Shown here one piece after another: positions 35,821 through 39,228 of a stretch of DNA of 64,000 bases (position 1 is the stretch's first letter; each line of letters begins with the position of its first letter). Position numbers and translations under genes: made by a program. The stretch comes from Allobosea vaviloviae (lineage in GTDB: Bacteria; Pseudomonadota; Alphaproteobacteria; Rhizobiales; Beijerinckiaceae), in contig NZ_LGSZ01000022.1 in assembly GCF_001298265.1 (NCBI RefSeq), positions 124,001 to 188,000 of the forward strand, written 5' to 3'. Under the pieces are notes generated by a model that saw nothing but the letters and a program-made list of their open reading frames with translations, ran no database searches and was not told the origin of the DNA.

Positions 35821-36263
35821 GATGGACGCACCGTTGGAGGAAGGGGCTGGCGCTCCGGCAGATCGGGAACGCCACCGAAGCCGTGCATTCGCATGGCCCA
35901 TTGCAGGCCGATGACGCCACCCTTGACCGGCTGCATCAGCAGCAGCGACAGGATGACGGTCAGCGCGGGCCAGATCGCCATGTGCATGCCCATCGACCAG
36001 TCGGCATATTTCTCGGCGAGCAGGATGCCGCCCACGATGATGTGGCCGACGATGGTGATGACGACATAGGGCGGCAGGTCGTCGGAGCGCTGATGATGCA
36101 TCGGCTCGCCACATACGGCGCAGGCATCGACCGGCTTGAGGAAGCCCTTGAACAGCTTGCCTTGGCCGCAATGCGGACAGCGGCCGCGCAGGCCGTTGCC
36201 GATCGCCATGCGCCAGTCGCGTTCCGGCGGCGTGCGGGCGGATGTGTGAATCTGGATCGCCAT
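35817..36263 (-). CDS. DUF983 membrane protein
   Basis: A 148-residue DUF983 protein. Two CxxC pairs (RCPHCGQGKLF and CAVCGEPMHH) suggest a small zinc-binding module, followed by two transmembrane helices at about residues 65-110 (YVVITIVGHIIVGGILLA and MAIWPALTVILSLLL). The function is unknown. It overlaps both rnr (upstream) and the Nudix gene (downstream) by a few bases, giving a tight rnr-DUF983-Nudix operon. Confidence 0.92.
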   Translation of the reverse strand: MAIQIHTSARTPPERDWRMAIGNGLRGRCPHCGQGKLFKGFLKPVDACAVCGEPMHHQRSDDLPPYVVITIVGHIIVGGILLAEKYADWSMGMHMAIWPALTVILSLLLMQPVKGGVIGLQWAMRMHGFGGVPDLPERQPLPPTVRPS

Positions 36264-38641
36264 CAGCGCCTCTTGCCTGTCTTTGGCTTGCCGGATTTGC
36301 CGCGTCCGGGCTTGCCGGCGCCGGCTCGGCCGGGTCCGCCTTTGCCTGCACCGCCACGGCCCGGCCCGAAGGGCGAACCCGGCCGACCGCCTCCAGAGAA
36401 GGCCCCACGGCTTGCCCGGACAGCGGACCGCACCGAGCCCTGGCGCCCCTCGGAGAGCAATTCGAACCGCAGAGCCCCCGCGACGGGAGCCGCCTCGACC
36501 AGCTTGACATGGACCCGGTCGCCGAGCCGGAAGCTCTCGCCGGTTCGCTCGCCGATCAGGGCATGCGCAGCCTCGTCATAGCGGTAGTAATCGGCGCCGA
36601 GCGTCGAGGCCGGCACGAACCCGTCGGCGCCTGTGCCGTCGAGCTTGATGAAGAGCCCGGCGCGGTTCACCCCGCCGATGCGCCCGTCGAATGAGGAGCC
36701 GATCTGGTCGGCGAGGAAATGCGCGATCAGCCGGTCGGTCGTCTCGCGTTCCGCCGCCATGGCGCGCCGCTCGGCCGCCGAAATCCGGGTCGAGACCTCG
36801 CGCAGCGCCTCGAGGGTCGTGCCTTTGGGCAGGCCGTCATCGCCGAATTTCTGCGAGGAGATCAGGGCGCGATGCACGATCAGGTCGGCATAGCGCCGGA
36901 TCGGCGAGGTGAAATGCGCATAGCGGCGCAGGTTCAGGCCGAAATGCCCGTAATTCTCCGCGACATATTCGGCCTGCGCCTGCGTCCGCAGCACGACCTC
37001 GTTGATGAAGGTCTCGTTTTCGGAACCCTTGATCATGCCCAGGATGCGGTTGAACAGCACCGGCCTCAGCGCGCCCTCCTTGGGCAGCTTGATCCCGATC
37101 GAGGCCAGAACCTCGCCGAGAGCCCGCATCTTCTCGACCGAGGGTTCGTCATGGCAGCGATAGATCAACTGGCTGCCGGCCTTCTCCAGCGTCTCGGCCG
37201 CCGCGACGTTGGCGAGGATCATGAACTCCTCGATCAGCTTGTGGGCCGCCAGCCGCTCGGGGACGATGACGCGATCGACCGAGCCGTCCGCCTTGAGGAT
37301 CAGCTTGCGCTCCGGCAGGTCGAGATCGAGCGGCTGGCGCGCATCGCGGGCCCGCGAGGCGACGCCATAGGCCGCCCAGAGCGGCATCAGGATCGCATCG
37401 CGAACCGCTGCCGCCTTCTCGTCGCCCTGGCCGTCGATGCCGGCCTGCGCCTGCTGGTAGGAGAGTTTCGCAGCCGAGCGCATCAGGATGCGATGGAAGG
37501 AGTGGCTTGCCTTCGAGCCGTCCGCCTTGAGCACGAGCCGGACCGCCAGCGCCGGCCGATCCTCGCCCTCGCGCAGCGAGCAGAGATCGTTCGAGATCCG
37601 CTCCGGCAGCATCGGCACGACGCGGTCGGGGAAATAGACCGAATTGCCGCGCTCCAGCGCCTCCCGGTCGAGCGCAGAGCCCGGCCGGACATAGGCCGCG
37701 ACATCGGCGATCGCCACCGTCACGACATGGCCGCCGGGATTGCCCGGGTCGTCGTCGGGCGCGGCATGGACCGCGTCGTCATGGTCCTTGGCGTCGGCCG
37801 GGTCGATCGTGATCAGGGGCAGCGCGCGCCAGTCCTCGCGGCCCGCTGTTCCGGCCTGGCGCACGGCTTCCGCTTCGGCCAGCGTCGCCGGCTGGAAGAT
37901 GTTGGGGATCCCGTGGGCATGGATCGCGATCAGGCTGACGGCGCGCTCCGACTTGATCGAGCCCAGCCTCTCGCGCACCTGCGCCTCCGGCGGGCCGAAC
38001 CGGCTCTCGCTGCGCAACGCGACGGAGACCAGGTCGCCATCCTGCGCGTCGCCGGTCTGGCCCTTCGGAATCAGCGCCTCGCGACCTTGCGACTTCTTGT
38101 CGATCGGGATCAGCCGGCCTGAACCGTCGGGCAAGGCGCGGAAGATACCGAGCACCTGCGCCTTGCCCTTGCCCATCACCTTGAGCACGCGGCCGGAATA
38201 GGAAAAGCCGTCGACGCCCTTCAGCCGCGTCAGCTTGAGCAGGACATGGTCGCCGATGCCGGGCGCGGGCGCGGCATGGCGCTTGGCCCGGAACTCGCGC
38301 TGCCGCTCGATCAGGATCTTGGGGGCTGCACCCTGATCCGCCTCGTTCCACTCGAGCGGCGCGGCGTAAGGGTCGCCGTCACGGTCCTTGCCTTTGATCT
38401 CGCAGAGCATGACGGGGGGCAACGCGCCGCGCAGATGTACAGGGTGCTCGTCGCCGTCGCCGCTGATGGCGCCGTCCTCGGCGATCTCCTTCAGCAGCCG
38501 CTTCAGCCAGATCTTGCCACCGGAATCGAGGCCGAAGGCCCGCGCGATCTCGCGCCGACCGGCCTCGCGCCCGGCCTGCCGCTCGGTTTCGATGAAGTCG
38601 AGGATGGCCTCGCGGCTCGGTTCAGGCGCGGAGACTGGCAA
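36263..38641 (-). CDS. rnr: Ribonuclease R
   Basis: RNase R, 792 residues, a 3'-5' exoribonuclease that degrades structured RNA, including rRNA and mRNA fragments. Order: N-terminal winged-helix region, cold-shock domains, the RNB catalytic domain (LITIDPADAKDHDDAVHA with the metal-binding aspartates), an S1 domain near the C-terminus (RIGGVNRAGLFIKLDGTGADGFVP) and a 70-residue Gly/Lys/Pro/Arg tail. It heads the operon with DUF983 and the Nudix gene. The 5' region upstream contains a mini-ORF and a hairpin. Confidence 0.95.
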   Translation of the reverse strand: MPVSAPEPSREAILDFIETERQAGREAGRREIARAFGLDSGGKIWLKRLLKEIAEDGAISGDGDEHPVHLRGALPPVMLCEIKGKDRDGDPYAAPLEWNEADQGAAPKILIERQREFRAKRHAAPAPGIGDHVLLKLTRLKGVDGFSYSGRVLKVMGKGKAQVLGIFRALPDGSGRLIPIDKKSQGREALIPKGQTGDAQDGDLVSVALRSESRFGPPEAQVRERLGSIKSERAVSLIAIHAHGIPNIFQPATLAEAEAVRQAGTAGREDWRALPLITIDPADAKDHDDAVHAAPDDDPGNPGGHVVTVAIADVAAYVRPGSALDREALERGNSVYFPDRVVPMLPERISNDLCSLREGEDRPALAVRLVLKADGSKASHSFHRILMRSAAKLSYQQAQAGIDGQGDEKAAAVRDAILMPLWAAYGVASRARDARQPLDLDLPERKLILKADGSVDRVIVPERLAAHKLIEEFMILANVAAAETLEKAGSQLIYRCHDEPSVEKMRALGEVLASIGIKLPKEGALRPVLFNRILGMIKGSENETFINEVVLRTQAQAEYVAENYGHFGLNLRRYAHFTSPIRRYADLIVHRALISSQKFGDDGLPKGTTLEALREVSTRISAAERRAMAAERETTDRLIAHFLADQIGSSFDGRIGGVNRAGLFIKLDGTGADGFVPASTLGADYYRYDEAAHALIGERTGESFRLGDRVHVKLVEAAPVAGALRFELLSEGRQGSVRSAVRASRGAFSGGGRPGSPFGPGRGGAGKGGPGRAGAGKPGRGKSGKPKTGKRR

Positions 38642-38783: not shown

Positions 38784-38811
38784 GAAGGGCCGCCCTTTCG
38801 GGCAGCCCTTC
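38784..38811 (-). terminator. 12-base-pair hairpin with GAAA loop upstream of rnr
   Basis: On the minus strand GAAGGGCTGCCC pairs with GGGCGGCCCTTC (one T-G pair) around a GAAA tetraloop; the next bases are TTCCGTTTC, a weak T-run. It lies 143 bases upstream of the rnr ATG and about 48 bases after the stop of the mini-ORF. It could terminate a short transcript or attenuate rnr. Confidence 0.6.
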
Positions 38812-38858
38812 CATTGCCGAACCGCAGCCCCGGTAACCGGGCCTGAAGATTCAAAAGC

Positions 38859-38936
38859 TCACGCGTAACAAGAACCCCACGTGGAAAGAGCCCAGGTCCG
38901 CCCGCTTTGAACCAGCGGTTGATGACAATGAGACAC
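38859..38936 (-). CDS. Candidate 25-codon mini-ORF with an ideal ribosome-binding site
   Basis: GTG at 38936, seven bases after a GGAGG that is part of a 17-base stretch complementary to the 3' end of 16S rRNA. The product would be 25 residues (MSHCHQPLVQSGRTWALSTW, then GSCYA), with two cysteines and a histidine. It is called mainly because of the exceptional ribosome site and because a stable hairpin follows. It may be a leader peptide of rnr or an independent small gene; alternatively the region may act as an RNA. Protein conservation is unknown. Confidence 0.35.
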   Translation of the reverse strand: MSHCHQPLVQSGRTWALSTWGSCYA

Positions 38937-38952
38937 TGGATCACCTCCTTTC
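38936..38952 (+). other. 17-base match to the 3' end of 16S rRNA
   Basis: The plus strand reads CTGGATCACCTCCTTTC, identical to the last bases of alphaproteobacterial 16S rRNA (anti-Shine-Dalgarno included). The identity stops on both sides, so this is not a longer rRNA fragment. Read on the minus strand it is an extended perfect ribosome-binding site. Upstream on the minus strand a TTGACA lies at 39007-39002, a possible -35 box, though no good -10 is visible. Confidence 0.55.
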
Positions 38953-39228
38953 AGTTGTTACCGACGAGATGAGGCTAGGGCGATTCTCGTTGCCACGTAA
39001 ATGTCAAAAAACGCGCTGCCGAAAGAGCCGCAACCGACGGCTGGCACGGCGGATTTGTCGCATCGCGCCACCCTGCTCATTTTGGCGCCGTCGTGCATGC
39101 CTAAAATATAACCAAAAGCCGAGGCGTCGCATGATTTTTGCGTATCACTGGGCTGCAGCGGCAGGAAATGCCGTCAGAAGGTCACGGCTGGCAGAGACTT
39201 GTCGTACCCTGACGTCCGGTCGTGCGGT

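Follow-up and report, generated by a model that had tools for sequence, protein, structure and literature searches.

What is encoded by a short stretch of DNA in which one strand spells out the 3′ end of 16S rRNA and the other an ideal ribosome site in front of a very small open reading frame? The question is raised by the region upstream of rnr in Allobosea vaviloviae, within the 64,000 nucleotides of contig NZ_LGSZ01000022.1 that were analysed here (the window). The initial annotation had drawn attention to 17 plus-strand bases, 38936-38952 (CTGGATCACCTCCTTTC), as identical to the 16S 3′ end, and they are indeed the same as the end of the 16S gene of L277, from the same order (...GCGGCTGGATCACCTCCTTTCTAAGG), a gene that scores 1574.8 bits against RF00177 in a covariance match. 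A search of 225 genomes with GAAAGGAGGTGATCCAGCCGC, the reverse complement together with the preceding 16S bases, gave 28 places, putatively 16S genes. The match in the window is not due to chance, because only about 4e-6 exact copies of the tail are expected per 64 kb when bases are treated as independent and GC is assumed to be 66%. By exact search of the host genome sequence the 16S tail occurs only at the minus-strand element, the genome sequences searched being partly masked (650 N in L277, for example).

Read on the minus strand, the same bases form part of a compact and ordered set of features (Table 1). The perfect extended ribosome site, the GTG seven bases beyond its GGAGG and the 25-codon ORF were all recovered at the coordinates first proposed, and the GC hairpin with its GAAA loop (38811-38784) is present upstream of rnr, which lies on the same strand. 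The hairpin is consistent with an intrinsic terminator; a shortened version of it appears in a simple terminator scan, which found two terminator-like sites against 0.8 expected from shuffles. A consensus promoter scan of the window found none, and judging from the weaker promoter-like hexamers transcription of the element would begin near 38965.

Table 1. Features of the element, and of its neighbour, in the Allobosea vaviloviae window
Feature	Position	Strand	Remarks
-35-like TTTACG	38996..39001	-	weak
-10-like TAGCCT	38972..38977	-	18 nt from -35
Rfam RF01867 (CC2171) match	38786..38960	-	84.8 bits, model 1-159
Extended SD GAAAGGAGGTGATCC	38938..38952	-	complementary to 16S tail GGATCACCTCCTTTC
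Mini-ORF (VSHCHQPLVQSGRTWALSTWGSCYA)	38859..38936	-	GTG 38936-38934, 25 codons, TGA 38861-38859
5′ arm of long-range helix P1/P2	38908..38933	-	from nt +4 of the ORF
ORF-internal segment GGACCUGGGCUCUUUCC	38883..38899	-	anti-SD mimic, predicted to be able to pair with SD and start codon
3′ arm of P1/P2	38809..38831	-	up to the terminator
Terminator-like GC hairpin	38784..38811	-	GAAA loop, then T-rich sequence
rnr (RNase R)	36263..38641	-	neighbour outside the element, longest ORF; RNB, CSD2, S1 domains

The initial annotation knew of no described element with this layout, but one exists: the minus strand from about 38965 to 38784 is a member of Rfam family RF01867, named CC2171, a Caulobacter sRNA. 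The match exceeds the curated cut-off of 75 bits and covers all 159 positions of the model, and the copy shares with the family its 5′ motif, the P1 helix and the terminal hairpin. There is one RF01867 match in the host genome, and among 14 control genomes Caulobacter vibrioides alone matches, over the cut-off. A search for conservation had been recommended at the outset, and it returned family matches in 85 of the 385 genomes sampled from the class at E <= 0.001, 14 of them over the curated cut-off. The exact motif AAAGGAGGTGRTCNNDTGTC is found in 84 of the 385, its reversed control in none, and within the order in 84 of 199 genomes; a spacing control with the spacer one base longer has no exact copy in the 385 genomes. 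In a phylum-wide draw the looser pattern AAGGAGGTGATCNNDTG gave raw matches in 70 of the 135 alphaproteobacteria and in 10 of the 263 genomes from elsewhere in the phylum; at least one match (G726, L295) is not the element, and most of the ten have different bases preceding the start codon. Allowing up to two mismatches in 225 genomes yielded 55 places (28 exact, 17 with one mismatch and 10 with two, the control covering all mismatch classes together), of which one, in G168, resembles noise. Single mismatches fall at the edges or change one inner A to G, with two exceptions, G051 and G009. Within 10 nt upstream of the SD an AAC is present in 145 of 155 loci, against 1 of 155 in the control. 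Both search methods miss homologues with a degenerate SD.

Copy number is mostly one per genome; two copies of the motif were seen in Methylobacterium tarhaniae (L158 and L193, on two contigs) and in genome G012. A mobile origin was considered with a 51-nt query, which found no match among phage records and partial matches on five plasmid records, three of Azospirillum and two of Methylobacterium. The 5′ part may thus exist in plasmid-borne form (H22-H25, partial matches to Azospirillum and Methylobacterium radiotolerans plasmid records).

For closer comparison two sets of loci were assembled. The class sample started from 92 places, of which 90 were taken and two weak ones left out; dropping the 7 of 90 without an anchor left 83 loci. 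A further 80 named loci were chosen, among the matches listed, by an exact 29-nt match, and one of these ends inside the ORF. Counts of ORFs and folds exclude duplicates, shortened loci and the long-ORF loci L034 and L085.

The position of the element directly ahead of rnr had suggested an attenuator or leader of that gene. The two share a strand, the terminator lies about 140 nt ahead of the rnr ORF, and the arrangement is kept in Bosea, to which the host is close, since its nearest mini-ORF peptide among the matches listed, that of Bosea sp. AAP35, differs by one residue; rnr also adjoins the element in the same-genus genome G902, whose peptide is identical to that of Bosea sp. CS1GBMeth4. 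Beyond this group the association dissolves. With flanks of 1.5-2 kb, some of them cut, rnr borders only this window's copy in the class sample and was not found at the other 82 of 83 loci; among the matches listed it stands beside 14 of the 80 named loci (11 named Bosea, 3 with Bosea-type peptides) and was not found at 66, 52 of the 80 having more than 1.7 kb of downstream sequence. A leader of rnr is accordingly very unlikely. Nor does any other neighbour recur, the largest neighbour cluster comprising at most 4 of the 83 class-sample loci. Promoter-like sequence is associated with the element itself: over 155 loci the score is 8.9, compared with 7.0 at a point 100 nt farther upstream, and in 94 of the 155 the best -10 begins 25-27 nt before the SD. 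Most simply, the gene is its own transcription unit. In four related genomes of one taxonomic family (f24; loci L050, L061, L062 and L069) the element lies, by eye, between genes resembling a queuosine-precursor transporter and arfB (GGQ motif), and here an anti-SD-like segment follows directly past the stop of an 18-codon ORF.

The start codon, ORF, terminator and promoter-like sequence are thus all conserved on the minus strand. A 16S-tail mimic made from the plus strand and able to mask SD sequences was also put forward in the initial annotation, and would make use of the 17 identical bases; with every conserved signal read from the opposite strand, it is scarcely credible.

A stand-alone gene filed by Rfam as an sRNA may be pictured as an ordinary trans-acting sRNA, in which the strong SD would only seat a 30S subunit that shields the 5′ end and the ORF would be incidental. 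Stabilising SDs are a feature of Gram-positive mRNAs. The Mesorhizobium huakuii member is also listed as a 215-nt sequencing product, outside the blotted set, in Table 1 of PMC5596092. Against this stands the conservation of frame, start codon and stop far beyond that of other frames, and, besides the SD, inspection by eye found no conserved unpaired seed. We consider this alternative unlikely, although it is the strongest of the rivals.

The kept frame can be described in numbers. Beside the 15 nt complementary to the 16S tail, a start codon lies 7 nt from GGAGG in 81 of the 83 class-sample loci and 6 nt from it in the other 2; at the 81, the codon is ATG in 40, GTG in 34, TTG in 7 and CTG in none. 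The SHC-type ORFs number 100: 21 come from the class sample, all with 21-26 codons, and 79 from named loci among the matches listed, in which selection by the exact 29-nt match fixed the start codon and the codons right after it. Of the 100, 98 have a length of 19-28 codons, whereas the two alternative frames give 13 of 97 and 18 of 96; the ORFs end in TGA (62), TAA (25) or TAG (13). Two loci, L034 and L085, share the 15-nt SD and its distance to the start codon but have ORFs of 55 and 56 codons which, by eye, have a signal-peptide-like start and resemble secreted small proteins; perhaps a gene has there captured the start of the RNA. In L167, from Microvirga guangxiensis, a palindrome-rich insertion separates the stop from the 3′ arm, and by eye the peptide is as in its relatives.

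Such an ORF could simply encode a micropeptide of about 24 residues with a function of its own, the RNA being a small mRNA. Its initiation site is ideal, its length is kept, the residues SHC, PRS and TW recur in the SHC type, and codons with a single difference are synonymous in 38 cases and not in 65, the other frames giving 27:70 and 37:67. Across 27 ORF pairs, however, the differences are spread over the codon positions as 61/77/78 (chi-square p 0.28), without the third-position excess expected of a selected peptide, whereas in the rnr positive control the third position takes a share of 0.58-0.74 (9 Bosea-type pairs). When this window is compared with Bosea sp. AAP35, 329 of the 2385 bases of rnr differ, and 1 of the 72 of the mini-ORF. 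The recurring residues coincide with paired RNA segments, the peptides of other lineages are unrelated, and no NCBIfam match was found for four peptides and no Pfam match for three. A functional micropeptide is therefore improbable; the even distribution of differences, unlike that of rnr, points to constraint on the nucleotides together with the frame and the stop. An RNA in which frame and stop are conserved but not the peptide looks like a switch that is worked by the ribosome.

How such a switch might work is suggested by complementarity between the SD with its start codon and the interior of the ORF. Against dinucleotide shuffles the predicted pairing has a mean z of -1.7 in 92 SHC-type loci and -1.8 in 58 others, and falls within the best 5% of shuffles in 47% and 48%, respectively. 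The helix has the form GACCUGGAUC-nnn-GCCUC in the SHC type and GAC..GGAGCA-ACCUC in the others. When bases -2, -1 and +1 of each locus are compared with those of other loci for their fit to that locus's ORF interior, the locus's own bases have a mean rank of 0.12 in SHC loci (n=96) and 0.31 in non-SHC loci (n=57, p 1e-4, p-values here being optimistic because the statistics ignore kinship among loci), 0.5 being expected, and all 6 TTG loci fit too. Own bases are best or tied in only 54 of 96 SHC and 16 of 57 non-SHC loci, and among ATG variants in 0 of 15 with CAA and 2 of 13 with CGA. In 19 of 96 SHC and 12 of 57 non-SHC loci the best site for this pairing is not within the ORF. In 113 of 153 loci the stop falls 0-22 nt past the pairing site; 2000 permutations give a mean of 79 and a maximum of 93, and each of the other frames gives 16 of 153. 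In the copy studied here the SD/anti-SD duplex is predicted to be weak, being interrupted and spread over 38883-38918 at -16.0 kcal/mol, against -20 to -25 kcal/mol in many relatives; pairing of its SD with the 16S tail is predicted at -35.0 kcal/mol.

Masking of an SD from within the ORF brings to mind hok and AapA1, type I toxin mRNAs in which metastable folds hide the SD (PMC6733600). The likeness would extend to the ORF-internal anti-SD, whose masking is predicted for the family and weak in this copy, to a competing long-range helix and to a predicted change with RNA length. The present RNA differs in that its SD is complementary to the whole 16S tail and its peptide is neither conserved nor, by eye, hydrophobic; it is also mostly single copy per genome. 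A type I toxin mRNA is on these grounds highly improbable.

The competing helix, P1/P2, is predicted to pair the sequence from nt +4 of the ORF with that directly before the terminator. Its own arms give -28.6 kcal/mol against -25.3 for swapped arms (n=95), and -23.6 against -19.8 (n=58), with own-arm mean ranks of 0.25 and 0.20; no more than 31 of the 95 and 27 of the 58 own-arm pairs reach the best tenth. The arms change on both sides across lineages, as in L030 (UCUAAUGAGAUU with AAUCUCAUGGAG) and L033 (CAUGGUUCAG with CUGACCAUG). The predicted P1/P2 and SD/anti-SD helices cross, and judged from their lengths they would form as alternatives. In folding predictions on growing RNAs of the SHC type, the unpaired fraction of the SD has its minimum of 0.17 at length +60, rises to a maximum of 0.40 at +130 and is 0.28 at +200; in non-SHC loci the predicted change is smaller, from 0.21 at +75 to 0.32 at +130. 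Pairing of the SHC-type SD is thus predicted to peak while the RNA is of nascent length and to ease after the 3′ arm has been made, a modest change. The covariation and opening results are uneven.

Comparison of sequences and modelled folds has shown, at the level of the family, the layout, the kept frame and stop, the absence of peptide selection, the SD/anti-SD complementarity, P1/P2 and the want of a conserved neighbour. The reading that we prefer, at a little under an even chance, is of a stand-alone small-RNA gene whose product would be a ribosome-gated switch. Its 5′ tail, comprising the whole-16S-tail SD and the start codon, would pair either with a 30S subunit, through its 16S tail, or, in a closed form, with the anti-SD inside the ORF, and P1/P2, whose 5′ arm follows right after the start codon, would cross the closed form and compete with it. 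Ribosomes would traverse the anti-SD segment and halt just past it, so that translation itself may hold the SD open; where loading fails, the RNA would close. Because a loaded ribosome would clear the internal copy and stop beyond it, the act of translation is taken as the function of the ORF, with the peptide a by-product. The initial annotation had supposed that a minus-strand RNA could titrate ribosomes, and the conserved ribosome site and mini-ORF could engage 30S subunits. Under the ribosome-gated reading the RNA would be translated in vivo and would switch between the two folds, and its output would be its own state (stability or exposure) or its hold on 30S subunits.

Published work can be set beside this reading at several points. 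SgrS is a dual-function sRNA. So is rnTrpL/peTrpL (PMC10117765, in part), and both resemble the present case in being small RNAs that carry a short ORF; here the peptide is not conserved, no codon-position signal of peptide selection appearing in the mini-ORF pairs, and the downstream gene does not recur. The same paper, in its available text, describes a 23-residue peptide of S. meliloti with the top translation efficiency among new ORFs. Extended SD sites in Staphylococcus aureus, where pairing likewise reaches towards the start codon, are described as a property of many mRNAs (PMC13009471, in part), whereas here a dedicated site of about 15 nt occurs mostly once per genome. In the available portion of PMC11701678, CC2171/RF01867 gained one covarying pair. 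Evidence that weighs against the ribosome-gated reading comes from Caulobacter, where the intergenic regions bearing most ncRNAs are untranslated according to the accessible part of Schrader 2014 (PMC4117421), which also states that two earlier predicted ncRNAs are translated, in that part giving no names. The available parts of PMC5082802 and PMC4287350 hold nothing on the element.

What is new here is the reading of RF01867 as an ORF with an extended SD and an internal anti-SD, and its spread below the Rfam cut-off. In what the literature searches listed, which were main texts other than Landt 2008, reportedly the founding paper for CC2171, no account of this layout appeared. The family is widespread in Alphaproteobacteria, yet that literature offers a database name and one line in an sRNA table. 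If the ribosome-gated reading is true, an RNA catalogued as non-coding undergoes translation because the act itself matters, has the ribosome's own tail for a ligand and is a naturally occurring gauge for free 30S subunits. More speculatively, and with perhaps a one-in-four chance in our judgement, the RNA may be dedicated to the ribosome: by presenting a sequence complementary to the entire 16S tail, against which a tail copy within the ORF would compete, it would sense, buffer or capture free 30S subunits (or check the mature 16S 3′ end), with peptide-neutral translation as the read-out.
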